Positions 15,415-31,248 of a DNA stretch of 36,537 bases are shown here, piece by piece (position 1 is the stretch's first letter; every line of letters starts with the position of its first letter). The notes beneath the pieces were generated by a model that saw only the letters and a program-made list of their open reading frames with translations, was not told the DNA's origin and searched no databases. The position numbers were made by a program, and so were the translations under genes. Source of the DNA: a virus; the IMG/VR virus record IMGVR_UViG_3300046504_000196, positions 1-36,537 of that record; one strand, given 5' to 3'.

Positions 15415-17544
15415 ATGAAAAATAACATCGTAGTCGTATTTTCCTCACATTTTTCAGAAGAAGAAAATCAAAAGTTTATAAAACACGTAGATGAAACAAT
15501 TGGAGTTCAACACAAAACAATTTGTTATCAAAACCTCAATCAATTTAGTCTACCACAGGTATATAATGATGCAATTGAGAAGCATAAAGTCAATGATTGT
15601 ATTTTTGTAATGTGTCATAATGATATTATTATTAAAACTAAAAATTGGGGTAGACTACTTCTAACTAAATATAATAATTCAAAGTACGACATTATTGGTG
15701 TTGCTGGAAGTACATATCTTCCCGCATCGGGAATGTGGTGGGAAGATCGAACCAAAATGTGTGGCATTGTGGAACATACCGATGGTTTAACTCAATGGGT
15801 AAGTGAATACTCTAAGCCAATTCTTAATGTAAAAGAAGTGGTTTTAATTGATGGTTTATTTATAACATTTAATCCCGACACAATTATACATAAATTTGAT
15901 GAAGAATTTAAAGGTTTTCATTTTTATGACCTGAGTTTCTGTATGCCTAACTATCTTGATGGTTGTAATATTGGTGTAACAACCGTAATCAGGATACTGC
16001 ATAAGTCAGTTGGTCAGACCAATCAACAATGGGAAGATTGTAGACGGCAATTTGCAAAGAAATATGAAGACGAATTACCATTGTCGTTACCACCAATTTA
16101 TAGTGATATTGTTGTCAAGTTAACTGCAGAACCCAAGGTTTCGATCATTATACCTACAAAGAATAATCTTAAATATATTCTTAATAATATAAATTCGTGG
16201 AATGATATCTGTAATTATAGTAATTACGAAATTTTAATTGCAGACACGGGTAGTACTGATGATGTAATTAGTGGATATGATGAAATACTGAGTGATAAGG
16301 TAAAACTTATTCGTTATGATTGGTATAATTTTGCCAAAATCAACAACAATATGGTGAAAAATCATGTGAGTGCCGACACAGAATTAGTGCTGTTCTGCAA
16401 CGATGATATTAGGTTAATTAATGATGCACTCAGCAGATGTGTTGAAATCTATAATAAGAATAAAGACGTTGTTGGTACAATTGGAATTCGTTTGCATTAC
16501 GGTAATGGCAGTATTCAGCATAATGGTATTATAATATATCGGGATCATGAAACCAATATAAGACTTTCACATCGGGACATAAAAAAATTGGAAGACTATC
16601 AGACAGGTGTAAATATGAATTCAATCGGTAATACTGGAGCATTTTTACTAATAAAAAAAGATTTATTTCAGTCTTTCGGTGGATTTCCGGAAAATTACGT
16701 GGAATGCCTTGAGGACGTTGAATTAAATCTCCGTTGTAAAATATTGGGTTTAAAAAACATTACTGTTAGTGATGCTGTTGCATATCACTATGAATCTGTT
16801 TCAAGAAACAAAATTCCTGGCGGTGAAAACAGATTTATGACAGATTATTTTACTTTATTGAATTTCATACAAAATAACGGTGTTTCAATAGTACAAAATG
16901 TGGTGAAAATACTTCCTGTAAGTAAATTTGTGGAAGGTAAATATAGTGATGCACTTGTTAATATAATAACAAGAACGCACAACAGACCTAAATATTTTGA
17001 GAATTGCCGAGAATCAATATTAAATCAAAGTCATAAAAATATTAATCATGTTGTTGGTAGTGATACGGATTGTGATTATTATGGTGATTGTATAAACTTA
17101 AAACTTCAAGACGTACAATTTCCTGTTGCAGAATATGGAACATATCAAGCACCTTGGAATTTACATTTAAATGAGTTACAAAAACACGTTAAAAACGGTT
17201 GGGTAATGTATTTAGACGATGACGATAAATTTGTTTCCAATGAGTCATTAAAAATTATAGTAAACAATATTGATAATGAGGACCAAATGATATTTTGGAG
17301 AGTAGACATCAACGGTTGGATTGTACCACCAAATGAAAGTTTTGGTAAAATTATTGCAGGTCAGATTTCGGGTATTGGTTTTATGTTTCATAGTAAACAT
17401 TTGCCAGTTGATTGGGGTTCATGGAATTTTGGTGATTATCGTGTAATGACGCAATTAGCAAAAAAATTAAAACAAAAATGGATCAATGCCGTGTTAACTC
17501 AGACACAAGGCAAACCCAATTTTGGTCAAATACCTGTTGATTAA
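15415..17544 (+). CDS. Three-module glycosyltransferase (GT2-like fusion)
   Basis: This 709-residue protein holds three GT-A-like modules. Module 1 (about 1-225) has I-V-V-V-F-S-S and a motif F-V-M-C-H-N-D-I at 64-71, like the StrF-type glycosyltransferase domain. Module 2 (about 240-495) is a classical GT2: V-S-I-I-I-P-T-K-N-N, A-D-T-G-S-T-D, F-C-N-D-D-I near 330, and a rhamnosyl-type G-A-F-L-L-I-K-K-D-L-F and E-D-V-E-L-N-L-R-C. Module 3 (about 510-709) has N-I-I-T-R-T-H-N-R-P and Y-L-D-D-D-D near 600. It could add several sugars in succession. It is first in the operon and follows a host-type promoter. Donors and acceptor are not known. Confidence 0.8.
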   Translation: MKNNIVVVFSSHFSEEENQKFIKHVDETIGVQHKTICYQNLNQFSLPQVYNDAIEKHKVNDCIFVMCHNDIIIKTKNWGRLLLTKYNNSKYDIIGVAGSTYLPASGMWWEDRTKMCGIVEHTDGLTQWVSEYSKPILNVKEVVLIDGLFITFNPDTIIHKFDEEFKGFHFYDLSFCMPNYLDGCNIGVTTVIRILHKSVGQTNQQWEDCRRQFAKKYEDELPLSLPPIYSDIVVKLTAEPKVSIIIPTKNNLKYILNNINSWNDICNYSNYEILIADTGSTDDVISGYDEILSDKVKLIRYDWYNFAKINNNMVKNHVSADTELVLFCNDDIRLINDALSRCVEIYNKNKDVVGTIGIRLHYGNGSIQHNGIIIYRDHETNIRLSHRDIKKLEDYQTGVNMNSIGNTGAFLLIKKDLFQSFGGFPENYVECLEDVELNLRCKILGLKNITVSDAVAYHYESVSRNKIPGGENRFMTDYFTLLNFIQNNGVSIVQNVVKILPVSKFVEGKYSDALVNIITRTHNRPKYFENCRESILNQSHKNINHVVGSDTDCDYYGDCINLKLQDVQFPVAEYGTYQAPWNLHLNELQKHVKNGWVMYLDDDDKFVSNESLKIIVNNIDNEDQMIFWRVDINGWIVPPNESFGKIIAGQISGIGFMFHSKHLPVDWGSWNFGDYRVMTQLAKKLKQKWINAVLTQTQGKPNFGQIPVD

Positions 17545-17546
17545 TT

Positions 17547-18260
17547 ATGGAGAAATTGGTTGATATTTATATGGCATCATTGTGGCGACAGGGACATGTG
17601 GTTAAAACAGTTAAATCGTTATTGCAGAGTCCAGAAGTGGGTAGTGTTACAATAGCATGTAATAATTACACTAATGAACAATGGGAATTTGTTAATAAAG
17701 AATTGGATGATCCAAAAGTTATATTACATAGAACTAATAATGAAAAGGGCAGTAATGAAAAACTCAGATTTATTGCTATTGGAAGTAATTTTTATATATG
17801 CTTGGCAGACGATGATCTCATATATCCACCTGATTATCTTAATAAATTAATTCAAGGCTGTGAAAAATATAATGCTATGGTTTCTCTACACGGTAGAATC
17901 ATACCAAAAGGTATTATTGGTAGTTATTATGGACAACCGTTGGCAGTTTTTCGATCATTAGGCACAGTTTTAAATGATGTTGAGGTTGACATTGCATCTA
18001 ATTGTGGTTCTTTATTTAAAAGAAATTTTTATAATGATCTTGATAAATGGTATGACTTCTGTGGCGGTACTTCAATGGATGACATATATGTAAATTATTT
18101 TGCTAAAAAAAGAGGTATTCGTAGGATAATACTTGCACATCAAGAAGGATATTTAAGACATAAAGAGCAACTTCCTGAAGATGATTATGTATTTAATAGA
18201 CATAGATATAGTGATAGAGTACAGACTGAATTTATAAATAAATATTTCAACACGATTTAA
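17547..18260 (+). CDS. GT2-like glycosyltransferase
   Basis: The protein has 237 residues. It starts with V-D-I-Y-M-A-S-L-W-R-Q-G, then V-T-I-A-C-N-N-Y-T-N as the nucleotide-binding strand, and C-L-A-D-D-D-L-I-Y-P with the metal-binding Asp residues at 88-90. This is the layout of short GT-A enzymes that act in O-glycan or capsule assembly. It starts 2 nt after the fusion glycosyltransferase and abuts the next gene exactly, so all three are one operon. Acceptor unknown. Confidence 0.75.
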   Translation: MEKLVDIYMASLWRQGHVVKTVKSLLQSPEVGSVTIACNNYTNEQWEFVNKELDDPKVILHRTNNEKGSNEKLRFIAIGSNFYICLADDDLIYPPDYLNKLIQGCEKYNAMVSLHGRIIPKGIIGSYYGQPLAVFRSLGTVLNDVEVDIASNCGSLFKRNFYNDLDKWYDFCGGTSMDDIYVNYFAKKRGIRRIILAHQEGYLRHKEQLPEDDYVFNRHRYSDRVQTEFINKYFNTI

Positions 18261-19070
18261 ATGAAAAGAAATAATATAAATATTAAAAAGACAATTAAAA
18301 AAAGAATTCTATTTGAACAACAAAATAAAGCAGATAGACTTAATAAATCAAAAGGGCATGAAATTTATGTCAGAAGTCATCCTGTGAAAACAGGAAAAAA
18401 AATAAATGTAATTATTTCTGCATATGATTGTGCTGAATTTATTGAAGAATGTTTAAATTCAATTGAAAAACAAACGTATAAATGTTATAAAATATTGTTA
18501 GGTATTGATGGCTGTGAAAAAACATTGGAAAAAATAAAGGAGATTCATCAAAAATATTCAAATTTATATGTATATTATTCTGAGGAAAATAATGGTCCGT
18601 ATCAAATGTTCAATGCACTTATACAATTAGTTCCAAATGGAGAATACATTCAAATATTTGGTGCTGATGATGTAATGAATATTAATATGTTGGAAAATAT
18701 GTCAAAATATGAAATTCCTACGGTATCACGTAATGATGGCGTTTTATTTATTAATAAAAATGTATTAAATATAGTAGGCGGTTTTAGAGATTGGAAATGC
18801 GGTGCTGATAGTGACATGATACATAGAATTACATTGGCAACAAAAAGTAAAATGTATTATGTTTCTCAATATTTTTTTCGTAGAGAACATGATAAACAAC
18901 TCACAAAACATTACAATACAAATTTTGATAGTAATTTAAGAAAGAGATATATTGAAATTACTGAAAACAATAAAAAATCGAAAAATCCTGATATTTATAT
19001 AACTCCGATTTGTAGTATAATAAAAAGAATTTTATATGAAACATTTGATAATAGTACGATTAAAATATAG
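18261..19070 (+). CDS. GT2-like glycosyltransferase
   Basis: The protein has 269 residues. After a basic N-terminal extension of about 45 residues comes I-N-V-I-I-S-A-Y-D-C-A-E-F, the GT2 opening strand. It is followed by L-N-S-I-E-K-Q-T-Y, L-L-G-I-D-G-C-E, and Q-I-F-G-A-D-D at 131-137 as the D-x-D-type site. The C-terminal part has V-G-G-F-R-D-W-K-C-G-A-D-S-D, typical of acceptor recognition in this fold. The stop is TAG. The next gene begins 35 nt inside this one in another frame. Confidence 0.75.
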   Translation: MKRNNINIKKTIKKRILFEQQNKADRLNKSKGHEIYVRSHPVKTGKKINVIISAYDCAEFIEECLNSIEKQTYKCYKILLGIDGCEKTLEKIKEIHQKYSNLYVYYSEENNGPYQMFNALIQLVPNGEYIQIFGADDVMNINMLENMSKYEIPTVSRNDGVLFINKNVLNIVGGFRDWKCGADSDMIHRITLATKSKMYYVSQYFFRREHDKQLTKHYNTNFDSNLRKRYIEITENNKKSKNPDIYITPICSIIKRILYETFDNSTIKI

Positions 19071-19653
19071 AGATATTGAACTCTTAAAATTTCGTGCATC
19101 ACTAATGAAAGAAATTTTAATTCCGTGTTTAGAATCACAAACAAATCAAGATTTTACTCTTTGCATTATGATGTATGATGCTGATCTTAAGTTTGTTTAT
19201 AATGTTTTACAATATAATTTTATATCATTTGAAGATTATAAAATACTTAAACAATATTGCATTGACGATAATATTAACATACAAACACGTCACGATTCTG
19301 ATGATTTCATGTCTAATAATTATGTTGAAAAAATTCAGTTGGAATATAAAAATATTATAAAGGGGCATGACACATTTATACTACAATTTCAACCAGAAAA
19401 AATTAATTATAAAACAGGTGAAATTTTACCCTTTTATCAATATACGAATGAGTCGATTTCGGGATTTGTTACTTTATGTCAAAAAAATGTAAATTTCACT
19501 GTTTATGAAAGACAACATATTTATTTATATGAATTAACAAAAAACATTTATACTTATCCAATAGGATATGTTAAATACTATATACATGGAAAAAATGATT
19601 CATTAATACCACGTGAAGAACGAATTCGTCAATGGAAGTATAATAATGATTAA
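19036..19653 (+). CDS. Putative rhamnosyltransferase-like protein
   Basis: The product (205 aa) fits the 'putative rhamnosyl transferase' family: I-I-V-R-L-K-Y-R-D-I near the start, L-I-P-C-L-E-S-Q-T-N-Q-D-F at 28-40, and the acidic motif R-H-D-S-D-D at 85-90. The early start that overlaps the previous gene by 35 nt is preferred because the N-terminal strand and R-A-S-L-M-K-E helix belong to the fold. It is shorter than typical members at the C-terminus. Sugar specificity cannot be read from sequence. Confidence 0.65.
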   Translation: MKHLIIVRLKYRDIELLKFRASLMKEILIPCLESQTNQDFTLCIMMYDADLKFVYNVLQYNFISFEDYKILKQYCIDDNINIQTRHDSDDFMSNNYVEKIQLEYKNIIKGHDTFILQFQPEKINYKTGEILPFYQYTNESISGFVTLCQKNVNFTVYERQHIYLYELTKNIYTYPIGYVKYYIHGKNDSLIPREERIRQWKYNND

Positions 19654-19663
19654 AATATAAAAC

Positions 19664-20218
19664 ATGATGACATTTAATAGTAAAGAATATTGGGAAAACA
19701 GATATAAATCTGGTGGTAATTCTGGAATAGGATCACAAGGCATTATTGCTGAATATAAGGCGAAAGTAATTAATGATTTTGTGAAGAACAATAATATTCA
19801 GACGGTATGTGAACTTGGTTGTGGAGATTGGTTGTTTTCATTATTCAAAGTTTCCGAATATACAGGATTTGATGTTAGTGAATTTGTTGTTGAAAGAAAT
19901 AAAAAAATATACAAACATAAGTTTACTACATCTATGAATGAACTTACTTTGTATGATTTAACCATTTCAATGGATGTTATTTTACATTTAATTGAAGAAG
20001 AAGTGTATCAACAATATATGAAAGACCTTTTTAGGTTAAGTAACAAGTATGTAATTGTTTATAGTACAAATAAGGACGAAATTCTTGGTGGTATACATAA
20101 TATATTTAGAAAATTTTTACCTGATGTTCCTCAAGAGTTTGAACTAATTGAATTTATTGACAATCCACATAAAGGACCAAATACTCAAGCAGATTTTTTT
20201 ATTTTTAAAAAAATATAA
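19664..20218 (+). CDS. SAM-dependent methyltransferase
   Basis: This class I methyltransferase of 184 residues has motif I V-C-E-L-G-C-G-D at 48-55 for S-adenosylmethionine, followed by Y-T-G-F-D-V-S at 66-72 and a motif IV-like region D-L-T-I-S-M-D-V-I-L-H-L-I-E-E. The D-V-I-x-H-L-I-x-x-x-x-Y pattern is common in methyltransferases found in glycan operons. Two ATG codons are adjacent at the start and either may be used. Its place among glycosyltransferases suggests methylation or capping of a sugar, though a small-molecule target is possible. Confidence 0.7.
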   Translation: MMTFNSKEYWENRYKSGGNSGIGSQGIIAEYKAKVINDFVKNNNIQTVCELGCGDWLFSLFKVSEYTGFDVSEFVVERNKKIYKHKFTTSMNELTLYDLTISMDVILHLIEEEVYQQYMKDLFRLSNKYVIVYSTNKDEILGGIHNIFRKFLPDVPQEFELIEFIDNPHKGPNTQADFFIFKKI

Positions 20219-20226
20219 TTAATAAT

Positions 20227-20943
20227 ATGGCAAAGGTAAATATTATAATAAGAGCATTCAATCGTCTCGAATATACAATAACTACAATTCGTGAAATTGA
20301 CCGTTTGGCGGGTTATAATAATTATAAAATTATTGTTATTGACAATGCCAGTAGTGATGGAACAAAAGAATGGTTAAAATCTTTAATGATTGAGGGTTAT
20401 TATAAATTAAAGCCAATTTACTTGAATTATAATGCTGGTGATTTTGGCGGTACAAAAATAGGTTATGATAATCTTGACTTAGATTGCGAATATGCGATGC
20501 AATGGGATAATGATTGTCCACCATTAACCGAAGGATTTTTAGCAAAAATGGTTGATATTATGGACACTTTTTCAATAATTGGTCAGTTAATGTTAAAACG
20601 TCAAGGTGTTGGAACTGTTTTACAAATATTTAATAAACAAGAGTATAATGGAGTGATTTTTGGTGATGTTAGTCAAGTAACTTGTGTTAATATGCATAGA
20701 AGGTCGGCAGTTCAAAAAATAAATTTTTGGATTACTGAACTTGATACCAAAACATATTGGGATTTTGGTTTAAATGATAAAATGCGAGAAGCAGGATATT
20801 ATTTAAAAAAAATTGAAAACATTAAAGTACAACACATTGATTGTAATGGTACATATGAGGGAAATCGACAAGTACTTAAATATCCAATATATACTAAAAA
20901 TCGCAGTGGAAACATAAATTACAATAAAACTAAATATGAATAA
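20227..20943 (+). CDS. GT2-like glycosyltransferase
   Basis: The protein has 238 residues. It shows V-N-I-I-I-R-A-F-N-R-L at 4-14, I-I-V-I-D-N-A-S-S-D-G-T at 35-46 and Q-W-D-N-D at 92-96, the GT-A nucleotide-sugar and metal motifs. The last 40 residues include V-Q-H-I-D-C-N-G-T-Y-E-G, possibly a catalytic His/Asp region. It begins 8 nt after the methyltransferase and overlaps the following gene by 8 nt. Confidence 0.75.
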   Translation: MAKVNIIIRAFNRLEYTITTIREIDRLAGYNNYKIIVIDNASSDGTKEWLKSLMIEGYYKLKPIYLNYNAGDFGGTKIGYDNLDLDCEYAMQWDNDCPPLTEGFLAKMVDIMDTFSIIGQLMLKRQGVGTVLQIFNKQEYNGVIFGDVSQVTCVNMHRRSAVQKINFWITELDTKTYWDFGLNDKMREAGYYLKKIENIKVQHIDCNGTYEGNRQVLKYPIYTKNRSGNINYNKTKYE

Positions 20944-21640
20944 AAAGATTGGCATTGTTATGACCTATTATAATAGGCAATATCAATTAAATAAAACACT
21001 TGAAACAATAAATCAACAAAATTATGATAATTTGTCAGTTGTAATTGTCGATGATAAAAGTGATGTAGAACTTGTTTTACCAAAATGTAATTTTGATGTT
21101 AAAATAATTAGAATTGGTGACGAAAAACAATGGACAAATCCAGAACCAGCATATAATAGAGGATTTTTATATTTACTTGAAAATACTGATTCAGAAATAA
21201 TTATAAATCAAAATGCCGAAACATACCATGTTGGTAACGTATTAGAATATGCATCGATAAATACGAATTTAAATAATTACATTACATTTGGTTGTTATAA
21301 TGTTGTTCCAAGTGGTAAGCAGAATGGATGGTATAATCATCCAATACATAGACCAGTAGCATATGAATTTTGTTCAGCAATTCATAAAGAGAATTTAATA
21401 AAATTAAATGGATATGATGAACGGTTTTCACTTGGTAGTGGATATGGTGACGATTTTTTATTACATAGAATAAGACTAATGAGATTAAATGTCGAAATAA
21501 CAACAAATCCAATTGTTGTACATCAATGGCATGAAAGTGTTTTGCATGGCGATTTTAATAAAAATCAAAGATTGCTTCAAATTTTAAGACAAGAAGGAAA
21601 AATTAAGGCGGTACATCTTTTTAATAAAGATTTCTGCTAA
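20936..21640 (+). CDS. GT2/galactosyltransferase-like protein
   Basis: The protein has 234 residues. The N-terminus G-I-V-M-T-Y-Y-N-R at 6-14 and V-V-I-V-D-D-K-S-D at 35-43 are typical GT2 strands. The usual D-x-D is replaced by N-Q-N-A-E at 91-95. The C-terminal domain A-I-H-K-E-N-L-I-K-L-N-G-Y-D-E-R, then G-S-G-Y-G-D-D-F, matches the galactosyltransferase C-terminal module. Absence of a clear D-x-D may mean a different metal dependence. It overlaps the previous gene by 8 nt; a 29-nt gap precedes the epimerase. Confidence 0.7.
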   Translation: MNKKIGIVMTYYNRQYQLNKTLETINQQNYDNLSVVIVDDKSDVELVLPKCNFDVKIIRIGDEKQWTNPEPAYNRGFLYLLENTDSEIIINQNAETYHVGNVLEYASINTNLNNYITFGCYNVVPSGKQNGWYNHPIHRPVAYEFCSAIHKENLIKLNGYDERFSLGSGYGDDFLLHRIRLMRLNVEITTNPIVVHQWHESVLHGDFNKNQRLLQILRQEGKIKAVHLFNKDFC

Positions 21641-21669
21641 AAATAATAAGTATATTTTAAATAAAAACA

Positions 21670-22545
21670 ATGAGAATTTTAATTACTGGTGCTAAAGGAT
21701 TTATTGGCACACACTTAACGAAACATTTAGAAGAATGTGGATATGATGTTATCGGTATAGATTTTCAAGATGGCGATCTTCGAGAAGATGGTATGGCAGA
21801 TGCATTAATTGAAAAATATAAACCAGAAATAGTAATTCATCTTGCAGCACAGGTGGGAATATGGTTTAACGAACAAGATTGTTTTCACGCAATTAATTCA
21901 AATGCCATAATGACATTACGTGTTGCTCAAGCATGTGCTAAAAATGGTGCAAGACTATTTCACACATCAACATCAGAAGTTTATGGTGAACATGGCGATG
22001 AAACTATTGATGAAGATGCTCCATTGATTGGTAAACCAACGGGTATTTATGCAATAAGTAAAAGATGGAGTGAAGATGCTGCAAGAGAATATGCGCCAGA
22101 TGGTTTGGTTATTATTAGACCGTCAATGCCATATGGTGCAGGAGCACCCCCTGGAAAAGGACGTAGAGCAATGGATAATATGTTGTGGCAAGCATATCAT
22201 CGCAAATCAATTACTGTACACAGGGGGTCAGTTCGTTCATGGTGTTGGATTGGTGATGTGGTGCGTGGTTGGCAAACAATAATTGAATCTGGACAAGAGG
22301 GTGCATTTAATATTGGAAGGGATGATGACGAAAGAACAATGCTTTGGATAGCAGAAGAATCTTGTAGAATTACAGGTGCTGACAAATCGTTGATTAAATT
22401 AGTTGACCCACCAATAAAAAAAACGATGATTAAAAGATTGTCGACAAAAAAATTACGTGATTTAGGATGGAAACCCATTGTTGAGATTGAAGAAGGAATG
22501 CAGAAAGTTTATGAGTGGGTAATTAAATTTCCTTGGGAAGAATAA
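21670..22545 (+). CDS. NAD-dependent sugar-nucleotide epimerase/dehydratase
   Basis: The protein (291 aa) is an extended short-chain dehydrogenase. The NAD-binding G-A-K-G-F-I-G lies at 7-13. H-L-A-A-Q-V-G follows at 57-63, then H-T-S-T-S-E-V-Y-G at 108-116 and the catalytic Y127-x3-K131. It ends with a domain containing V-R-S-W-C-W-I-G-D-V and F-N-I-G-R-D-D, as in UDP-glucose 4-epimerase and dTDP-glucose dehydratase relatives. It would convert a nucleotide sugar used by the nearby glycosyltransferases. The substrate cannot be told from motifs. It is distinct from the HldD-like epimerase further on. Confidence 0.8.
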   Translation: MRILITGAKGFIGTHLTKHLEECGYDVIGIDFQDGDLREDGMADALIEKYKPEIVIHLAAQVGIWFNEQDCFHAINSNAIMTLRVAQACAKNGARLFHTSTSEVYGEHGDETIDEDAPLIGKPTGIYAISKRWSEDAAREYAPDGLVIIRPSMPYGAGAPPGKGRRAMDNMLWQAYHRKSITVHRGSVRSWCWIGDVVRGWQTIIESGQEGAFNIGRDDDERTMLWIAEESCRITGADKSLIKLVDPPIKKTMIKRLSTKKLRDLGWKPIVEIEEGMQKVYEWVIKFPWEE

Positions 22546-22566: not shown

Positions 22567-22746
22567 ATGAAAGACGACAAAATAAAAACCGAAAAATGCG
22601 TTAATTGTGGCGCAGAAACAGATATTCCAATCAGTTTAGACATTGATTTAAGAAAAAATTACGTGGAAGGTGCAGGTCAATTATGTCCTGCTTGTTATAA
22701 TAAGTTTTATGATACAAGAGAAGACAAAGGTTCTGGTAATAGGTGA
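22567..22746 (+). CDS. Small zinc-ribbon protein, 59 aa
   Basis: ATG at 22567 opens a frame ending TGA at 22744-22746. Two C-x2-C pairs, C11/C14 and C40/C43, would form one zinc ribbon. The first 10 residues and the tail are charged. It begins 21 nt after the epimerase and overlaps the HldE-type kinase start by 38 nt. The paired Cys and the fit in the operon support a real gene. Function unknown; a nucleic-acid or protein-binding adaptor is possible. Confidence 0.6.
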   Translation: MKDDKIKTEKCVNCGAETDIPISLDIDLRKNYVEGAGQLCPACYNKFYDTREDKGSGNR

Positions 22747-23494
22747 TGGTTGCAAGGATGTATTTCAATACGGTAAATGCGAAAGGTTAAGTCCTGAAGC
22801 ACCAGTTCCGGTATTTAAACCCCTGAAAGCCATAAATAATGGCGGTATGGCGGTAAATGTATATAATAATCTCAAAGGATTGGGTGTTGATTGTGATATT
22901 CTTACTAATTCAGGTATAACCAAAACCAGGATCGTTGATGAAGTCAGCAATCAGATGCTTTTGAGGATCGATGAAAATGATGAAATTCAGCAAATCACAA
23001 TGGAACAATTAGAAACAATTAATTATGGAATATATAAAGCAATTGTAATTAGTGATTATGGAAAGGGTTTTTTGCATGAAGAAGACATAGAGCATATTTC
23101 AATAAGGCATAAACGTGTATTCATGGATACCAAAAAAGAAATTGGAAATTGGTGTAACGATGTTTTTTGCATTAAAATAAACAACAAAGAATATCAAAGA
23201 AATAAATCTTGGTTAGATCATATGTTTAATAATAATTTAATTGTGACATTAGGTGATAAGGGCGCAAGGTATTGGAATATAAAGAAAAAAGTAAAAGAAC
23301 AGATATTTCCAAACACCAATGAGCATCCTGTACGTGATCTTACAGGTGCAGGTGATACTTTTTTAGCAGGACTTGTTGCAAAATTCATAGAAAATAACGA
23401 TATTTGTGATGCAATAATTTTTGCCAATCGTTGTGCTGCTTGGGCAGTAACGCAAAAGGGTGTGTCAGTGGTTGATAGATATAAAATTGTTTGA
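22709..23494 (+). CDS. HldE-type heptose-7-phosphate kinase domain (PfkB family)
   Basis: This 261-residue product closely resembles the N-terminal kinase half of HldE/RfaE. It has V-L-V-I-G-D-G near 8-14, then R-L-S-P-E-A-P-V-P-V-F at 26-36, N-G-G-M-A-V-N-V-Y-N-N at 44-54, T-R-I-V-D-E-V-S-N-Q-M-L-L-R-I-D at 73-88, and the ATP-site motif L-T-G-A-G-D at 211-216 with the catalytic Asp. HldE phosphorylates D-glycero-D-manno-heptose 7-phosphate at C1. In Escherichia coli this domain is fused to the adenylyltransferase; here the two halves are separate genes, as with HldA/HldC. I chose ATG 22709 because earlier codons lie inside the zinc-ribbon gene and look unrelated. The cupin gene follows after one base. 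Confidence 0.8.
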   Translation: MIQEKTKVLVIGDGCKDVFQYGKCERLSPEAPVPVFKPLKAINNGGMAVNVYNNLKGLGVDCDILTNSGITKTRIVDEVSNQMLLRIDENDEIQQITMEQLETINYGIYKAIVISDYGKGFLHEEDIEHISIRHKRVFMDTKKEIGNWCNDVFCIKINNKEYQRNKSWLDHMFNNNLIVTLGDKGARYWNIKKKVKEQIFPNTNEHPVRDLTGAGDTFLAGLVAKFIENNDICDAIIFANRCAAWAVTQKGVSVVDRYKIV

Positions 23495-23495
23495 A

Positions 23496-23873
23496 ATGAT
23501 AGATGTTAAGTATCAAAAAGACCCGAAATTAAAAGTGCCAAAGGCATGGGGAGAAGAAGTAATAATACATAATGATGATGGTTATTGTGGAAAACTTTTG
23601 CGTTTCAGGAAAGGTGGAAAATTCAGTATGCATTTTCATTCGGTGAAAACCGAAACTTGGTATGTTAATTATGGTAAATTTATACTAACATTTATTGATA
23701 CAAAAATTGCAGATAGACGTACAACTACTTTAGTGAATGGTGATATAGTACATGTTGAAAAAAATACTCCACATCAACTTGAAGCACTCGAAGACGGTGA
23801 AATATTTGAAGTCTCAACACCACATTCAGATGAAGATAGTTATAGAATTGAGAAAGGAGATAGTCAAATATAA
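23496..23873 (+). CDS. Cupin-fold protein (sugar-phosphate isomerase-like)
   Basis: The protein has 125 residues. The single cupin barrel has metal ligands H46-x-H48 and E53 in motif 1 (M-H-F-H-S-V-K-T-E) and H93 in motif 2 (N-T-P-H-Q-L). The start K-A-W-G-E-E resembles the mannose-6-phosphate isomerase C-terminal cupin family. It sits between the HldE-type kinase and a HAD phosphatase, so it may act on a sugar phosphate or nucleotide sugar; a GmhA-replacing isomerase is a speculative possibility. ATG 23496 fits better than the upstream GTG at 23460, which lies inside the kinase gene. Confidence 0.65.
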   Translation: MIDVKYQKDPKLKVPKAWGEEVIIHNDDGYCGKLLRFRKGGKFSMHFHSVKTETWYVNYGKFILTFIDTKIADRRTTTLVNGDIVHVEKNTPHQLEALEDGEIFEVSTPHSDEDSYRIEKGDSQI

Positions 23874-24160
23874 TGTTAATTTATGTGGACATTGATGGCA
23901 CTGTGTGTGATACTGTTGGCGGTTATATGAACGCCAAACCAGATCATCAGGCGATTGCTAAGATCAATAAATTATATGATGAGGGCAATATAATTGTTTA
24001 TTGGACCGCAAGGGGTAAAACAACTGGCATTGATTGGTCTGAATTAACCGGACGACAGTTGACAGATTGGGGTTGTAAATTTCATGATCTTATAATGAAC
24101 CAAAAGCCTAATTATGATTTACTTATTTGTGATAAGACTAAAAGAATTGAAGAATTATGA
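23873..24160 (+). CDS. Compact HAD phosphatase
   Basis: The protein has only 95 residues. Motif I is Y-V-D-I-D-G-T with D6 and D8, motif II is Y-W-T-A-R-G (T45), and a motif IV-like region is L-L-I-C-D-K-T. The family resembles short phosphatases of capsule or polysaccharide loci. Placed between the HldE-like kinase and nucleotidyltransferase, it could take the GmhB step (heptose 1,7-bisphosphate to 1-phosphate), although GmhB proteins are about twice as long. The start overlaps the cupin stop by one base, and the end overlaps the next gene by 4 bases. Confidence 0.7.
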   Translation: MLIYVDIDGTVCDTVGGYMNAKPDHQAIAKINKLYDEGNIIVYWTARGKTTGIDWSELTGRQLTDWGCKFHDLIMNQKPNYDLLICDKTKRIEEL

Positions 24161-24591
24161 ATATTTGGACAAACGGATGCTTTGACATCTTACACGCAGG
24201 GCATATTGATTTATTGTGGTATGCAAAATTATATACTGATGATGTGCAGACAACTGCAAATATTAATGTACCAACAAATAAATTATATGTTGGACTTGAT
24301 AGTGATGAACGGGTTAAGTTCCTCAAAGGAGATAAACGACCAATTAATGACATTAATACCAGAGTTAAAATAATGTCAAATCTTAAAATGGTTGACAGTG
24401 TTGTAATTTTTCATGATGAACAGGAATTAGAATATTTTATCAAAGTATTTAATATTGATTACATGGTAATTGGCGATCAATACAAAGATAAACGGGTTAT
24501 TGGCGCAGAATTTGCGAAACTTGGTGTGATTTATTATCCGACAGATGATCGTTCAAGTACAAATATAATTGAAAAGATTAAAAATCTATGA
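24157..24591 (+). CDS. HldE-type heptose-1-phosphate nucleotidyltransferase domain
   Basis: This 144-residue protein matches the C-terminal adenylyltransferase half of HldE/RfaE. It has T-N-G-C-F-D at 5-10, H-A-G-H at 13-16 (nucleotide-binding HxGH), L-Y-V-G-L-D-S-D-E-R-V-K, G-D-K-R-P-I-N, V-I-G-D-Q-Y, and S-S-T-N-I-I-E-K-I near the end. It would join heptose 1-phosphate to AMP from ATP, giving ADP-heptose. It overlaps the HAD gene (ATGA) and the epimerase gene (4 bases). The adenosine rather than cytidine preference is inferred from the HldE likeness. Confidence 0.8.
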   Translation: MNIWTNGCFDILHAGHIDLLWYAKLYTDDVQTTANINVPTNKLYVGLDSDERVKFLKGDKRPINDINTRVKIMSNLKMVDSVVIFHDEQELEYFIKVFNIDYMVIGDQYKDKRVIGAEFAKLGVIYYPTDDRSSTNIIEKIKNL

Positions 24592-25547
24592 TAGTAGTAA
24601 CAGGTGGAGAAGGTTTTATTGGTCAGAATCTCGTCAAGGAGTTAGAAAAACGGGGAAATATTGGCGTTGTGGTTCTCGATACAAAAACCGAAACTCTGAA
24701 TTCAATTTATGAATGGTTGATGATTCATGCCAAAGAAATTGATATAATCTTTCATTTAGGTGCTATTACCGATACCACTATAATGGATAGAAATCTTTTC
24801 GATGAATATAATGTAGTTTCATCAATGTTTATTTGGAACATCTGCACAAATAATCAAATTCCGTTGATTTATGCAAGTTCGGCAGCAACTTATGGTGATG
24901 GAGAAGAAGGTTTTGATGATGAAAAATCAATATTGGATTTGAAACCATTAAATCCATACGGTTGGTCAAAACAGCAATTTGATTTATGGGTATTAGAACA
25001 GGAAAAACAACCACCATATTGGTATGGATTGAAATTCTTTAATGTATATGGCAATGGTGAGGCAGGTAAGGGCAAGATGGCATCAGTTGTGTATCAGAAA
25101 TATCTTGAAATTAGGGCAAATGAAGAATATGTGGATGATTGCGTTAAGTCTGATGGTAGTTTTTGTGGTACTCTGCATGTGAATCTATTTAAATCTCACA
25201 ATCCAAAATATATGGATGGTGAACAATTGAGAGATTTTATTTATGTTGATGATATAGTTGATGTTTGTATTTGGCTTTGGAGAGAAAAACCATTGTCCGG
25301 CATTTATAATGTTGGCACAGGTAATGCACGTACATTTAATGATCTCGTAATGGCAGTTTTCAAAAGTCTTGGTACAATGCAAAATATTAAATATATTAAT
25401 ATTCCACCTAAAATCAGGGATAAATATCAATATTTTACTCAGGCAAAGATGAATAAATTAAGAAATGCGGGTTACAGTAAACCTTTTCATGAATTGGAAG
25501 ATGGCGTTAAGAAGTACGTTAATAAACTAAAATATGAAAATTGCTAA
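24588..25547 (+). CDS. HldD-like ADP-heptose 6-epimerase
   Basis: This 319-residue protein resembles HldD/RfaD. The nucleotide site T-G-G-E-G-F-I-G lies at 5-12. H-L-G-A-I-T-D-T-T follows at 56-64, then Y-A-S-S-A-A-T-Y-G-D-G at 95-105 and P-Y-G-W-S-K at 123-128 (catalytic Y124, K128). F-F-N-V-Y-G-N-G-E and K-G-K-M-A-S-V-V are also present. HldD epimerises ADP-D-glycero-beta-D-manno-heptose to the L-glycero form used for lipopolysaccharide core. With the kinase and nucleotidyltransferase just upstream the pathway reading is mutually supporting. It overlaps its neighbours at both ends. Confidence 0.85.
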   Translation: MIVVTGGEGFIGQNLVKELEKRGNIGVVVLDTKTETLNSIYEWLMIHAKEIDIIFHLGAITDTTIMDRNLFDEYNVVSSMFIWNICTNNQIPLIYASSAATYGDGEEGFDDEKSILDLKPLNPYGWSKQQFDLWVLEQEKQPPYWYGLKFFNVYGNGEAGKGKMASVVYQKYLEIRANEEYVDDCVKSDGSFCGTLHVNLFKSHNPKYMDGEQLRDFIYVDDIVDVCIWLWREKPLSGIYNVGTGNARTFNDLVMAVFKSLGTMQNIKYINIPPKIRDKYQYFTQAKMNKLRNAGYSKPFHELEDGVKKYVNKLKYENC

Positions 25548-26169
25548 CATTGTTTACGAGAATGAGTTGGTCAATCACACCAATGTGGAGTATGTAAACT
25601 ATTACAAAGGACTAACTCAGTATGAAAAACTTGATAATACACAGCCTACTTTGTATGTTGGATGGTCTTTTATGAAAGCCTGTAATCCAGATAATGAGAT
25701 TATCCGAAATGCTGATATTCTCAGGAAGAAGATCATTGCCAATGAATTATATTGGGAATTTAGTTTTGAGGAAAGTAAGGCATCTCACATACGTGGTGTT
25801 GACAATTTCGTGAATTTAGCACCGACTTTCTACTTTCAACCAAAGTACGTTTATGTCAATTTAGACCCAGTTTTCTTTCAAGTTGTTGACATTCAAGGTT
25901 TGTTTGATGTTCTACCGAAAAAGATTGATGTCGCATACAATTATCGAAATGAAATGATATATGTTCTTTTTGAAAATAAAATCACTGGTATTGATTTGAG
26001 AATGTATGATTATTTTAAATTTGACACAAATGATATAATTAAAAGATTATCAGAACGTTCAGCAATAATGCATAATGATCTGGATGGTATGATGTATCTC
26101 AATCACTATAAAATCTTTCCAAATTTTAATCTGCTTAAAAGATATCTAATTACGATATTGCCAAAATAA
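25534..26169 (+). CDS. Unknown protein at end of glycan operon, 211 aa
   Basis: The family is not recognised. The sequence is rich in aromatic residues (Y-V-N-Y-Y-K-G, L-Y-V-G-W-S-F-M-K, P-K-Y-V-Y-V-N-L-D-P-V-F-F), with alternating strands and a hydrophilic helical centre. There is no membrane segment or signal peptide. It overlaps the HldD-like gene by 14 nt and is the last gene before a late-type promoter, so it belongs to the sugar operon. A glycan-handling role is only inferred. Confidence 0.6.
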   Translation: MKIANIVYENELVNHTNVEYVNYYKGLTQYEKLDNTQPTLYVGWSFMKACNPDNEIIRNADILRKKIIANELYWEFSFEESKASHIRGVDNFVNLAPTFYFQPKYVYVNLDPVFFQVVDIQGLFDVLPKKIDVAYNYRNEMIYVLFENKITGIDLRMYDYFKFDTNDIIKRLSERSAIMHNDLDGMMYLNHYKIFPNFNLLKRYLITILPK

Positions 26170-26430: not shown

Positions 26431-26443
26431 TATTCTTTTGACA

Positions 26444-27232
26444 ATGGAAAAAGACAAAAAAAGTAATCTTTCAGAAGAGCATCTTAGGAAGATTAAATAT
26501 CGTTTTGGATATAAGATAAATGAAACCGCAAGATATTCTCCATTAACAAACGCAAATGAAGTATTTGATGAAATACCTACGTTAAAAAATGAGGCAGGTG
26601 ATCAGGAAGATGCTCCTAAACCTGGCGGTGGCGAAGTGCCACCTGCGCCAACTAATGATTTACCTCAAGGTACAGATACATCCACGTTACCTGGACCTGA
26701 AGGTGGTGCTGGCGAAACTCCGGGCGAACAATTGCCAAAGAAAATATCTGCAGGTGGAAAAGAAACACCTGAAGAAGACCCCGAAGTAACGGGTCAAGAC
26801 CCAATGGTAGGTGGTGATGTTAATCCAATGGGTGCAGACATGAATGCAAATCCTCAAGGAGAAGTTGATGACATTCAGAATGATATTATTAAACATAATA
26901 TTGAGGCAATGAAATCTATTAATGATCAATTGCAAAGCCTCGATAAAACAACACAGGATTTGAATGCTAAATTAGATAGTCTTAATGCTGATGTTGAAGA
27001 AGTTCGTGAACCAACGAATACTGAGAAACTTATGAATAAAACAAGTGTAAGTTATCCTTATTATTTTAATCTTAATGATTTTTGGTCGGGAAATTGGTTT
27101 AATGAAAAACATAGTGGTGAAAAAGAAAAGGGCGTAAGAGAACTTCCTGATGGTTCATTCATAGCAGATTTTGATGATCTGCCACAGAAGTCAAAACAGG
27201 ATGTTCAGAATAGTTTTAATGAATTTGATTAA
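26444..27232 (+). CDS. Probable virion/head-associated protein with Pro/Gly-rich linker
   Basis: The product has 262 residues. A basic N-terminal helix (N-L-S-E-E-H-L-R-K-I-K-Y-R-F-G-Y-K-I-N-E) precedes a disordered Pro/Gly/Glu-rich section from about residue 45 to 130. A coiled coil follows (D-I-Q-N-D-I-I-K-H-N-I-E, then S-L-D-K-T-T-Q-D-L-N-A-K) and a folded C-terminal segment with W-S-G-N-W-F. I start at ATG 26444; a TTG two codons earlier is unlikely. The next gene starts within its stop codon. No function assigned. Confidence 0.6.
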   Translation: MEKDKKSNLSEEHLRKIKYRFGYKINETARYSPLTNANEVFDEIPTLKNEAGDQEDAPKPGGGEVPPAPTNDLPQGTDTSTLPGPEGGAGETPGEQLPKKISAGGKETPEEDPEVTGQDPMVGGDVNPMGADMNANPQGEVDDIQNDIIKHNIEAMKSINDQLQSLDKTTQDLNAKLDSLNADVEEVREPTNTEKLMNKTSVSYPYYFNLNDFWSGNWFNEKHSGEKEKGVRELPDGSFIADFDDLPQKSKQDVQNSFNEFD

Positions 27233-27705
27233 TGAAAGTATTTCATTCATATGGCAGTAAAGAAAAACTTTTTGACATGATGAGAAAAGTTAATGGCATT
27301 GCATTGAGTGAAAAAAAAGAAAAAATAAACGAAGAAGTGCTTCCGCAAGGACAAAGGCATGAAATACTCGAAAAATTCATTGAATTTGTTGATGAAAAAC
27401 TTCAGTTAGGTAAAAATATGCCAAAGATTATCATATCATATGATGGTAATGAGGCAAAGAATATGTTGTCGTTTGGCAAAAATACTCCTGAAGCAAAAGA
27501 AATAAGAGTGGTTGATAAAAATAGAAATTTGGCAGACACATGTAGAACATTAGGTCACGAATTAAAACATACCGACCAATATATAAAGGGAAAATTAAAT
27601 CCTGGTTCTGGTGACGATGGCACTGATTTTGAGAACGAAGCAAATGCTTTTGCAGGTGTTATCATGAGAGAATTTGGAAGAAAGTACCCAATAATATTTG
27701 AATAA
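27232..27705 (+). CDS. Minigluzincin-like metalloprotease with possible head-targeting N-terminus
   Basis: The protein has 157 residues. It contains a zinc-protease signature H-E-L-K-H at 109-113 and, 23 residues on, F-E-N-E-A-N-A-F-A-G (E136 a plausible third ligand), the gluzincin arrangement. The first 27 residues parallel those of the next gene (G-S-K at 8-10, V-N near 20) and end in L25-S-E27. T4 head protease gp21 cuts after (L/I)-x-E, so this may be a cleavable capsid-targeting peptide. A late-type promoter heads the block. A protease carried in the head is inferred, not shown. Confidence 0.65.
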   Translation: MKVFHSYGSKEKLFDMMRKVNGIALSEKKEKINEEVLPQGQRHEILEKFIEFVDEKLQLGKNMPKIIISYDGNEAKNMLSFGKNTPEAKEIRVVDKNRNLADTCRTLGHELKHTDQYIKGKLNPGSGDDGTDFENEANAFAGVIMREFGRKYPIIFE

Positions 27706-27714
27706 TTAAAGAAA

Positions 27715-30700
27715 ATGAGAATCTATAAACCAGTTGGTAGTAAAGATAGATTTGTTGAAATGTTTCAGAACGTCAACAAAATTAAATTAAATGAGGGATT
27801 ATATGAAGCAGGTAGTCCAAATTTAAATGCCGATACTGTTTTAAACATGGCATACAATCAATTAAAAAATAACGGTCTTAATATAGAACATAGTAATACT
27901 CAGGCAACTGGCGAAGAAAATTTCGTTGAATTGTTATGTACTGATAAACAAGGCAATAATATTACTTTTGTTTTTAAAGTACAATCAACCGAAGGTGATC
28001 AGGAAGGTGTATATAATGTTAGTGGTGTTATACTAAACAGTTTTTCATATGATAGTGCTGATGGCGAAGAAACTATTGACTTGGCTGAAGACGGATTAAA
28101 TAAATTCAATCAGCAACATGGTCAAGAATTATTTGATGTAGTTAACAAATATATTGATGTCGAAGAACCTGCAGAAACTGATGTTCAGGAAGCAGTTGAT
28201 TTAATTGATGCTATAAAACAAGATAGTTATCCTTTTGGCGGTGGCGATGATAGAATGCAAACCGGAAAAAATTATGGTGATGAAAAACCAACAAATGATG
28301 CAGTTAGAGTAAAATCACCCGAATTGGATCAATTTGTTCAGGAAGGCGATATGAAAACATCATCTATTTTTTCAGTTTCAAATTCATTAAAAAAATTAGG
28401 TATTCGAATGCTTGATATTATTGACAAACCAGAAATTAATACAATTATATTTAAATTAAAATATGGGGGTAAATCTTATAATGCTTCGGTTAATAAGGAT
28501 GAAATTGATTCAATAGATAATGTTTCAGAAATATTAAAAAATAAACTTGGAATCAGTAGTGTTTCAGAAACATTACAAACTGGAAAAGCATATGCAGACG
28601 AAAAACCAACAAATCCTGATGTAAGGGCAAAATCACCTGAATTGGATCAGTTTGTTCAGGAAGAACAGAGTGTTAATGAATTTGATAAACCTGCAATGAA
28701 GTTAATTCAGCAAGCACCGGGTGGTGCGACTGCAGGCGGTGTTAAGCAACTTGAAGAGAAAATGGAATTGCCAATAATGGGAGTATCAAGTATTGGTGGT
28801 GCAAGTGTTAATGAAGTGGATATAGTTGGTGAACCAAAACCCCCGTTTCCAGTGAGTACAAAATCGCCTGTCGATGATCTACCACCGGAAAAAAAGAAAG
28901 TTATCATGGATGCCATTAATAATTTAACTGTTAAAAGAGGCAGACGTGAATATGCTCCAAGTGCAAATGAAATAAATGATGAAATACTAAAAATGCGTAA
29001 TCAACCATCTGCAGTTAAAGAAGATTGGGAAGATGATATATTGCATAAAGGTGCAGAAGAATTTGAAAAAAGAGTTGGTGATCCTGTTGTAATTGATAGA
29101 GATAATCCTGTTGATATACAGCAAGTACCTGAACCAGAAGAAGAACCAATTCCTGAAGTAAGTCCTGAAAAACGAAAAATTATTTTGCAAGCAGAGGAAA
29201 ATCTAATGGCAAAAAATATAAGAAATACTAATTATTCACCAACAATAACTGAATTGTTGGATGAAATTGACAAGATCGAAGGTAAAGTAAAGCCTATTAA
29301 GAAATTCAGAAGTGTTTCACAAGAAGCAGAACCATATTTAAGTGAAATTGGTACTGCACCTTCACCATCTCCATATAGGATTAGTTCAAAAGATATGGAA
29401 CAAATTTTTGATAGAATTGATCCAAATTCTAATATTAAAACTCAAGTAATTCAGGCAGCAAATGAATTTGTTGATACGACATTAGGTGTTCAAAGATTTC
29501 AAATGCCGCCAGAAAAATATAAACAAATAGTAAAAAATGTTGCAGTACAGATGTATATGGCTTATTTGGAACGAATAGCAGTATTAAATGAGGAAGAAGA
29601 AAAAAATAATTATCCTGATCCGTTAGGAAAAAAGTTTAAACCAAAAAAACATTATCCACATAAAAAGAAAAAATTAGATACTTCTGTTAAATTAACCGAA
29701 GAAGAAAATTATACTGATGACGATGATGAACCCGTATTGCCTGTTGATGCTGCTGCAAAAAGAGCACAAATGCAGGCAAGATCAGATATTTCCAAGGACC
29801 TTGGCGGTGATGCAAAACGTCCAATAGGAAATTATGATACAAAATTTCAATTTGACATGGCTGAAGACCTAAGTGGCGAACAACCTTCAACTGGTGAAGA
29901 ACTATTGAAAAAAGAATATGAAAATCTCAGACAGAACGAAACATTTGAATTTCTATCGGATGCATATATTAGTTTGTTAGGACTTAGTAGGGAGTTCAGG
30001 GACGACAAGAAGATTCAAGTTTCATTAACAAATATTCGTGACAGTATTGTAGAATATCTTAATATGTCTGATATACCTATTACTCAACAAGGTGTTCAGG
30101 ACTTTTTTGAAAATAGTGATCTTGAAGAAGGTTTAAGTGAAGATAAAGAACCTGGAGCAGAAATACCTGAAACCGATCCCGATGCGACAGGACCTGATAT
30201 TACTCCTGAAGAAACACCAACTGATGATGGTATGTCACATGAACCTGAAGGTGATAAAATTGAACAACTTGCACAAGATAAAGAAGAACAGGGTGAAGTA
30301 ATTCAAGGTGGCAAAGGCGATGGTAAATCACCATTAGAATTCGATCCGGAACAGATATTAATGGGATTGAAAGTAGAAAAAGAACATACAGATGATCCTC
30401 TGACCGCAATTGAAATTGTTATGGATCATTTAACTGAAGACCCTGAATATTATACGCAAAAGGATACTCCTGAAGCAAGTGCACAAGCAGGCGCAAGTGC
30501 AGATGCAAGTAATGGTGAAGAAAAAAGTCGATTGCCGGGCGTAGACAGTGATGATGAAGGTAATCCAATACCAGCAATTGAGCCGAATTTTAAGGCAATG
30601 GGTTTAGAACCTAAAGATAATGACAAGGAAATGACCGATAGATTGCTTGGTTTTAAACCACATAATGTAGGTGATGAGGTAGAACCAGAAAAAGAACTTG

Positions 30701-31248
30701 GTGAATCTACAACAGTTTCGGATGAAAAAGATAGATTTCAAGCAATTGTCAATACTCCAAGACCTGAAACTCCATTAGTAAAAGAAGATTTAGGTTTTTC
30801 AGAAAAAGATTTGAAAGATCGTGATCCTGCTTCATGGCATCAACTTCAAATAGCAAAAAAGACATTACAAATGCCTGATGCAATGGTTGGCGTAATGGGT
30901 GGTATGACTAAAGAGGAAGCAAAAGAAATTCTAAGAAAATATAGTGTTAAAGGTATTCAGGAAATCGTTGCAGGTAAGAAAAGCAAAGCATTTCGAATTG
31001 GTGAATATGCCGTTGGTGGCATTATAAAGGTAGATATAAATGGTCCAATGATTAGAATTGAAGCATTGGATTTTAATAGCAAGAGACCTGTTAAAGGAGA
31101 AGATTTTGCAAAAGACGATGTAAATGGCATGGATAATTATCTTAATGAATTGACTTCATCATTTTATGCAGGTAAAGTAATGGAATGGATTAAAACAAAT
31201 TTGGGTGTTAGTTCAAAACCTAACTATTTTAGTAATCAAAATTGGTAA
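27715..31248 (+). CDS. Giant acidic repeat protein, probable internal head protein
   Basis: The protein is 1177 residues long, strongly acidic and largely low-complexity. The N-terminus (M-R-I-Y-K-P-V-G-S-K...L25-N-E27) parallels the preceding metalloprotease-like protein and ends in a possible T4-type prohead protease site. Two internal duplications are visible. One is T-G-K-x-Y-x-D-E-K-P-T-N...S-P-E-L-D-Q-F-V-Q-E at about 182-211 and 288-317. The other is P-E-K-(K/R)-K-x-I...Y-(A/S)-P-(S/T) at about 390-428 and 482-520. A compact C-terminal region after about 1040 has W-H-Q-L-Q-I and V-D-I-N-G-P-M-I-R-I-E. An ejected inner-body protein is a reasonable guess. No enzyme motif recognised. A terminator follows. 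Confidence 0.6.
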   Translation: MRIYKPVGSKDRFVEMFQNVNKIKLNEGLYEAGSPNLNADTVLNMAYNQLKNNGLNIEHSNTQATGEENFVELLCTDKQGNNITFVFKVQSTEGDQEGVYNVSGVILNSFSYDSADGEETIDLAEDGLNKFNQQHGQELFDVVNKYIDVEEPAETDVQEAVDLIDAIKQDSYPFGGGDDRMQTGKNYGDEKPTNDAVRVKSPELDQFVQEGDMKTSSIFSVSNSLKKLGIRMLDIIDKPEINTIIFKLKYGGKSYNASVNKDEIDSIDNVSEILKNKLGISSVSETLQTGKAYADEKPTNPDVRAKSPELDQFVQEEQSVNEFDKPAMKLIQQAPGGATAGGVKQLEEKMELPIMGVSSIGGASVNEVDIVGEPKPPFPVSTKSPVDDLPPEKKKVIMDAINNLTVKRGRREYAPSANEINDEILKMRNQPSAVKEDWEDDILHKGAEEFEKRVGDPVVIDRDNPVDIQQVPEPEEEPIPEVSPEKRKIILQAEENLMAKNIRNTNYSPTITELLDEIDKIEGKVKPIKKFRSVSQEAEPYLSEIGTAPSPSPYRISSKDMEQIFDRIDPNSNIKTQVIQAANEFVDTTLGVQRFQMPPEKYKQIVKNVAVQMYMAYLERIAVLNEEEEKNNYPDPLGKKFKPKKHYPHKKKKLDTSVKLTEEENYTDDDDEPVLPVDAAAKRAQMQARSDISKDLGGDAKRPIGNYDTKFQFDMAEDLSGEQPSTGEELLKKEYENLRQNETFEFLSDAYISLLGLSREFRDDKKIQVSLTNIRDSIVEYLNMSDIPITQQGVQDFFENSDLEEGLSEDKEPGAEIPETDPDATGPDITPEETPTDDGMSHEPEGDKIEQLAQDKEEQGEVIQGGKGDGKSPLEFDPEQILMGLKVEKEHTDDPLTAIEIVMDHLTEDPEYYTQKDTPEASAQAGASADASNGEEKSRLPGVDSDDEGNPIPAIEPNFKAMGLEPKDNDKEMTDRLLGFKPHNVGDEVEPEKELGESTTVSDEKDRFQAIVNTPRPETPLVKEDLGFSEKDLKDRDPASWHQLQIAKKTLQMPDAMVGVMGGMTKEEAKEILRKYSVKGIQEIVAGKKSKAFRIGEYAVGGIIKVDINGPMIRIEALDFNSKRPVKGEDFAKDDVNGMDNYLNELTSSFYAGKVMEWIKTNLGVSSKPNYFSNQNW
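28258..28345 (+). repeat. 88-bp imperfect direct repeat, copy 1
   Basis: This copy lies in the giant head-associated gene, 230 nt before copy 2 at 28576-28663. Both encode T-G-K-x-Y-x-D-E-K-P-T-N and S-P-E-L-D-Q-F-V-Q-E. Differences are mostly at third positions and in the middle, so the duplication is old and the protein motif is under selection. Confidence 0.75.
28576..28663 (+). repeat. 88-bp imperfect direct repeat, copy 2
   Basis: Second copy of the in-frame repeat at 28258-28345, same length and no internal gap. Confidence 0.75.

Follow-up and report, generated by a model that had tools for sequence, protein, structure and literature searches.

A phage gene cassette for a candidate NDP-heptose pathway, with a cupin apparently in the place of GmhA

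Viral enzymes that activate heptose, a seven-carbon sugar, have been described by Tang et al. (Science 2024) who, as related in two commentaries on that work (PMC11461863, PMC11573728), found that these enzymes make ADP-heptose in vitro, reported the phosphatase to be absent in viruses and tied the use of CTP and UTP to an Arg within (F/L)xxGxSTT. Phage heptose genes are thus not new, and they are already annotated in cyanophages. We analyzed the IMG/VR record IMGVR_UViG_3300046504_000196, a stretch of 36.5 kb whose whole length we call the window and which covers part of the genome of a T4-like phage. Within a glycan operon it carries a cassette of five genes for a heptose kinase, a cupin, a very small phosphatase of the HAD family (mini-HAD), a nucleotidyltransferase and the epimerase HldD. 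Compared with the viral enzymes of Tang et al. as these commentaries present them, the window adds a candidate phosphatase, the mini-HAD, and a candidate isomerase, the cupin; neither commentary mentions a cupin (PMC11461863, PMC11573728). The cupin in the place of GmhA, found also in some bacteria, is apparently the new point, since we found no earlier description of it: a literature search that left most subscription journals outside showed, among its 20 best matches, no paper joining a cupin with GmhA or ADP-heptose.

The cassette and the proposed replacement of GmhA by a cupin

The cassette consists of the following genes:

22709 to 23494, plus strand: HldA/HldE domain I-like kinase (TIGR02198 best family; 4e84 best solved relative; RLSPEAPVPV and GAGD motifs)
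23496 to 23873, plus strand: cupin of 125 amino acids, proposed sedoheptulose-7-phosphate isomerase replacing GmhA (HxHx4E...H motif, cupin fold, kinase linkage)
23873 to 24160, plus strand: mini-HAD phosphatase of 95 amino acids, proposed heptose-1,7-bisphosphate 7-phosphatase replacing GmhB (HAD motifs; 9iqw, 1xpj; phrog_1238)
24157 to 24591, plus strand: HldC/HldE-C-like nucleotidyltransferase of 144 amino acids (TIGR02199 best family; 5x9q; Arg at the STTR5 position, DDRSST)
24588 to 25547, plus strand: HldD, ADP-glyceromanno-heptose 6-epimerase (TIGR02197 above cut-off; 1eq2; Tyr124, Lys128, Lys161)

A previous interpretation made from the letters alone (the sequence-only reading) had proposed five consecutive genes here, and they are real; each either abuts the next or shares up to 4 bases with it, a spacing in keeping with translational coupling. 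The start given in that reading, 22567, belongs instead to a separate open reading frame of 59 amino acids (22567-22746), and the kinase most likely starts at the ATG at 22709, with the cupin starting at 23496. The short frame, which overlaps the kinase start and has two CxxC pairs (CVNC...CPAC), probably codes for a small zinc-ribbon protein.

The same reading considered GmhA as the only step not visible. The GmhA search was indeed negative: PF13580 (SIS_2, the GmhA domain) was not found in the window fragment, in ten relatives or in four complete cyanophages, and a local GmhA profile had no match in 80 viral kinase loci and 80 viral cupin loci (some contigs are shared between these sets). 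The step has nevertheless a best candidate, the cupin that adjoins the kinase and to which the sequence-only reading had assigned no role. GTDB genomes were searched with a profile of the cupin, and the kinase was present in 22 of the 26 genomes found through the cupin. Among the Patescibacteria, 17 of 287 genomes carry the kinase (E<=1e-30) and five of these have a cupin linked to it. In G012 and G034 (loci L016 and L038) the cupin gene immediately precedes that of the heptose kinase, after which come GmhB-like and nucleotidyltransferase genes and, for L038, HldD too; in G202, G224 and G254 (loci L072, L073 and L074) it is fused to the kinase, as the first domain in the former two and as the last in G254. 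None of the five has a SIS_2 protein of GmhA size, the only SIS_2 frames of G202 and G224 being 598-644 amino acids long and taken as GlmS by size. SIS_2 is present (E<=1e-18) in all 12 other kinase-bearing genomes, and in nine of them it lies next to the kinase or forms one protein with it (a GmhA-kinase fusion exists in G160), so that linked cupin and GmhA exclude each other (Fisher P=1.6e-4, shared ancestry ignored). Some of these 12 also have unlinked, lower-scoring cupins.

In Planctomycetota the kinase (E<=1e-55) was detected in 256 of 314 genomes. SIS_2 at E<=1e-10 is missing from 18 of the 20 kinase genomes having the cupin (E<=1e-22), versus 29 of the 236 without it (Fisher P=3.6e-13, with the same disregard of ancestry). 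The pattern holds for both cupin subtypes, namely for the five genomes that score highest and for 13 of the 15 remaining ones. Because cupin and kinase mostly lie on different contigs in these genomes, they provide evidence of complementarity, not of linkage. In both phyla GmhA is thus statistically replaced by the cupin; together with cupin-kinase fusions of either domain order and an operon position that elsewhere is held by GmhA, this complementary distribution suggests that the cupin acts as the isomerase.

The cupin's HxHx4E...H pattern is invariant among 25 aligned phage and bacterial relatives and its AlphaFold2 model is confident (pLDDT 85), with general fold matches only (oxalate decarboxylase, quercetinase, D-lyxose isomerase and phosphomannose isomerase). 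Sequence profiles likewise match D-lyxose isomerase, L-ribose isomerase and cupin mannose-6-phosphate isomerase, and also dioxygenases and decarboxylases. The chemistry proposed here is known from cupin enzymes that interconvert fructose and mannose, as well as fructose-6-phosphate and mannose-6-phosphate. The cupin phosphomannose isomerase (PF01050) and D-lyxose isomerase (PF07385) share with the window protein the fold, the metal-ligand pattern and an aldose/ketose isomerase chemistry; unlike them, the window cupin is linked to heptose genes and remains below the PF01050 gathering score (19.9 bits for a cut-off of 23.6), while 14 of the 25 family members match PF01050 at E<=0.01. In a tree with many weak branches, phage cupins group with those of L016, L038 and Planctomycetota/Binatota, and the fused cupins form a separate branch. 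In one phage relative (L007, 8755-9155) the cupin is split over two frames, by a frameshift or a sequencing error, with the rest of the cassette intact. Another cupin contig, from the Prochlorococcus single-cell genome AG-409-P03 (L027), carries a UvsX/RecA-like gene and, by eye, looks like a T4-like phage present in that genome, not like cyanobacterial DNA.

Kinase, nucleotidyltransferase, epimerase and phosphatase

The proposal of an HldE-type kinase and nucleotidyltransferase and of an HldD epimerase was upheld as to the best families, which are RfaE domains I and II and HldD, with the reserve that the former two proteins stay below their equivalog cut-offs. By its family score the epimerase is a true HldD-family protein: it reaches 333.4 bits with TIGR02197, above the curated NCBIfam equivalog cut-off of 274.6, and it matches E. 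coli HldD (1eq2) with E=1.8e-46. Its Y124, K128 and K161, invariant in 11 phage proteins, align with the E. coli sites of 1eq2, which we take to be the catalytic Tyr/Lys of the short-chain dehydrogenases/reductases and a second active-site Lys (Tyr140 and Lys178 in the E. coli enzyme). For the kinase, the profile search against the PDB placed D-beta-D-heptose 7-phosphate kinase 4e84 far ahead (E=1.6e-28, other PfkB kinases starting from 4e-12). The RLSPEAPVPV and GAGD motifs are kept among phage relatives; the best stretch of the profile aligned to 4e84 includes the N-terminal PEAPVPV region, and RLSPEAPVPV aligned in this search with 4e84 only. The presence of kinase and transferase on separate proteins was thought to be unusual, and this view has to be abandoned, as HldA plus HldC is a standard arrangement, ordinary in bacteria.

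The nucleotidyltransferase possesses the GxFD-HxGH nucleotide-binding motif and the C-terminal S[ST]T motif. With a single-sequence phmmer search 5x9q ranks first, while with an alignment profile an ethanolamine-phosphate cytidylyltransferase scores above it, and these differing rankings make its substrate less secure. Before SST the window protein has an Arg (DDRSST); in 73 viral loci where the motif was found, the residue preceding STT or SST is Arg in 23 and Tyr in 36 (some contigs being counted twice). Since Tang et al. tied an Arg at this position to CTP/UTP promiscuity, the nucleotide product may not be ADP-only. The original proposal of ADP-heptose as product thus stands for an NDP-heptose pathway in a phage glycan operon and is perhaps too narrow as to the nucleotide.

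The assignment of the phosphatase as GmhB was not sustained. No GmhB model matched the mini-HAD at E<=0.1 in Pfam and NCBIfam scans, its 95 amino acids compare with about 180-200 for the HAD core of a full-length GmhB, and its closest solved chains are 9iqw, a 'capsule biosynthesis protein' (E=2e-18) for which the same literature search, outside most subscription journals, found no paper, and 1xpj; it is a mini-HAD like those of capsule phosphatases. The HAD motifs (DxDGT, T/SAR, K and DxxxxD) are kept across the phage relatives and the protein belongs to phrog_1238. By position and elimination it is a candidate for the pathway phosphatase, an assignment weaker than that of the cupin because bacterial cupin-kinase operons carry a GmhB-like HAD instead. 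Public annotation (L013 14060-14389 and 14349-14726; L011 6331-7015; PHROGs 1238 and 7851) gives the mini-HAD the name 'phosphoheptose isomerase' and lists the cupin as 'cysteine dioxygenase'; the former name does not fit a HAD and could lead surveys of phage pathways astray.

Conservation and neighbourhood in phages

The first relatives, found in IMG/VR through HldD or the kinase, are ten T4-like contigs (L001-L010), most of which have the cassette followed by a gene for a 211-amino-acid protein, in the same order and with cassette proteins about 40-80% identical to those of the window. Such a conserved order indicates that the gene set is not due to chance. No HAD match was obtained in the L010 cassette. 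Homing endonucleases (HNH or GIY-YIG) occur in frame with the cupin or the HAD gene of several relatives:

L001 6144-7295; L004 9156-10097; L006 2192-3133; L009 5493-6512 and 6986-8155: endonuclease segments

These extra segments were considered as possible hiding places of GmhA and discarded, being HNH or GIY-YIG endonucleases (for L006 by its layout, identical to that of L004). In L009 a TnpB-like frame, recognized by eye, also lies between the nucleotidyltransferase and HldD. More broadly, 51 of the 80 viral kinase loci hold a cupin and, among the 26 viral cupin loci that extend over at least 18 kb, 19 hold a kinase. Among cyanophages, S-CAM1 and S-SM2 have the five kinds of gene together in a single region, and S-T4 and Sf-CH8 have the kinase, nucleotidyltransferase, HAD and cupin.

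Around the cassette, the window contains:

7526 and 15049: T4 baseplate-like genes
15415 to 21640, plus strand: glycosyltransferase/methyltransferase genes of 709, 237, 269, 205, 184, 238 and 234 amino acids (Pfam/PHROG matches for most, the 269-amino-acid one not among them)
21670 to 22545, plus strand: second NAD-dependent epimerase/dehydratase of the glycan operon (phrog_540)
25534 to 26169, plus strand: 211-amino-acid protein directly after HldD, syntenic in L001-L010
34677: UvsX-like gene

The phage to which this fragment belongs has relatives on contigs of up to 299 kb. Genes for glycosyltransferases, methyltransferases and epimerases follow one another from 15415 to 22545, between structural genes, and the cassette comes next; the upstream glycosyltransferases and methyltransferases are likely to use its sugar. 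After the cassette, two genes (26438-31248) code for low-complexity proteins rich in Pro, Glu and Gly (264 and 1177 amino acids) with repeated short motifs. The 211-amino-acid protein is 45-77% identical in 50 IMG/VR loci (L168-L217), on contigs of up to 365 kb; it has no usable match in Pfam, NCBIfam, PHROGs, PDB sequences or INPHARED, and its AlphaFold2 model, built with nine relatives, is unusable (pLDDT 47). A role as sixth gene of the pathway was rejected, 15 of the 50 viral loci having no cassette gene in the flank examined. It is probably a conserved neighbour, not a pathway enzyme, and its gene marks the junction next to a variable glycan island.

Proposed pathway, alternatives and known systems

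We infer the enzymatic activities, the nucleotide and the end use of the sugar as follows. Starting from sedoheptulose 7-phosphate, the cupin would isomerise this compound in place of GmhA, the HldA-like kinase would make heptose 1,7-bisphosphate, the mini-HAD would take off the 7-phosphate in place of GmhB, the HldC-like enzyme would add the nucleotide (ADP, possibly also CDP or UDP) and HldD would epimerise C6 to give NDP-L-glycero-D-manno-heptose, which the neighbouring glycosyltransferases would place on a virion or host-surface glycan. From sequence and gene context we judge it probable that the cassette constitutes such a complete phage-borne NDP-heptose (nucleoside diphosphate-heptose) pathway with two non-orthologous substitutes. 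The balance also tips, slightly, towards the wider proposal that this cupin family, present in T4-like phages, Patescibacteria, Planctomycetota and others, represents a second, unrelated class of sedoheptulose-7-phosphate isomerase which, with the mini-HAD, would make the phage pathway self-contained, the host supplying only a pentose-phosphate intermediate and nucleotides.

Several observations weigh against these proposals. The window is a genome fragment; 29 of the 80 viral kinase loci have no cupin in the flank examined, some of them with full flanks, and the kinase is missing from 7 of the 26 viral cupin loci with full flanks. Of the Planctomycetota kinase genomes without cupin, 29 lack SIS_2 as well, for which incompleteness of metagenome-assembled genomes may account, and both Fisher tests ignore shared ancestry. 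The cupin fold can separate an isomerase neither from a dioxygenase nor from a decarboxylase. Many bacteria have the cupin away from heptose genes, and in L018 it adjoins an apparent GDP-mannose 4,6-dehydratase (read by eye); some members may be mannose-6-phosphate isomerases. Given L018 and the seven viral loci without kinase, the family is probably not heptose-specific throughout. These non-heptose contexts, the frequency of cupin sugar enzymes in glycan operons and the common dependence of phages on host enzymes would suit a heptose pathway relying on the host GmhA, with the cupin doing another job, such as a ketoisomerisation or epimerisation further along the pathway or the modification of another sugar of the operon. 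We regard this explanation as rather unlikely in view of the mutual exclusion of GmhA and linked cupin in kinase-bearing Patescibacteria, the cupin-kinase fusions found there and the strong complementarity in Planctomycetota. Moreover, no HldE kinase was found in 66 of 81 genomes of picocyanobacteria, the host family of cyanophages, which argues against cyanophages merely boosting a host pathway; a host GmhA serving it is not expected (the GmhA content of these genomes was not searched).

That the cassette makes another nucleotide-activated sugar, from a ketose or aldose phosphate other than a heptose, appears less probable still. What speaks for it is that TIGR02198 and TIGR02199 are the best families of the kinase and the nucleotidyltransferase with 127 and 98 bits only, for cut-offs of 345 and 181.5, which also counts against the heptose pathway, that the nucleotidyltransferase profile also scores glycerol-3-phosphate and ethanolamine-phosphate cytidylyltransferases, and that the HAD is of capsule type. 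The TIGR02198 cut-off is strict, being missed as well by most kinases of the bacterial heptose operons we found; HldD passes its own cut-off, the two best families are both RfaE domains, the kinase has the stretch aligned only with 4e84, and genes for GmhB-like proteins and HldD are part of bacterial cupin-kinase operons. Finally, the sequence-only reading also envisaged that the phage supplies or depletes NDP-heptose as a signal or defence-related metabolite and not as a glycan precursor. NDP-heptoses do signal to ALPK1 in vertebrates (PMC11461863), to which ALPK1 is restricted (PMC11573728); with a cassette that follows a glycosyltransferase run and no defence gene recognised beside it (the padloc library was not searched), we give this hypothesis very little credit. 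The neighbouring glycosyltransferases favour a glycan use and nothing points to signalling or defence.

If the proposed pathway is true, the first step of heptose activation would be filled both in phages and in bacteria seemingly devoid of GmhA, the database names 'phosphoheptose isomerase' for the HAD and 'cysteine dioxygenase' for the cupin would be corrected, and searches of NDP-heptose producers by GmhA and GmhB would be seen to miss organisms and viruses. Such producers are of wide interest because vertebrates sense NDP-heptose through ALPK1.

The closest phage systems are the cyanophage glycan islands (S-CAM1, P-SSM2, S-SM2, S-T4 and Sf-CH8), which, like the window, group a kinase, a nucleotidyltransferase, a mini-HAD and a cupin in one region, S-CAM1 and S-SM2 having a nucleotide-sugar epimerase there as well. 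They differ from it by a mostly 35-50% identity, another gene order, a Tyr commonly placed before STT or SST where the window has an Arg, the annotation of HAD and cupin under the names quoted above and the 211-amino-acid gene, which was not found in them (INPHARED). With the bacterial heptose pathway the window shares an HldA-like kinase, an HldC-like nucleotidyltransferase, split as in bacteria having HldA and HldC, and HldD; it departs from it by a kinase of only about 260 amino acids, by a 95-residue mini-HAD with no GmhB, and by a cupin where no GmhA was found.

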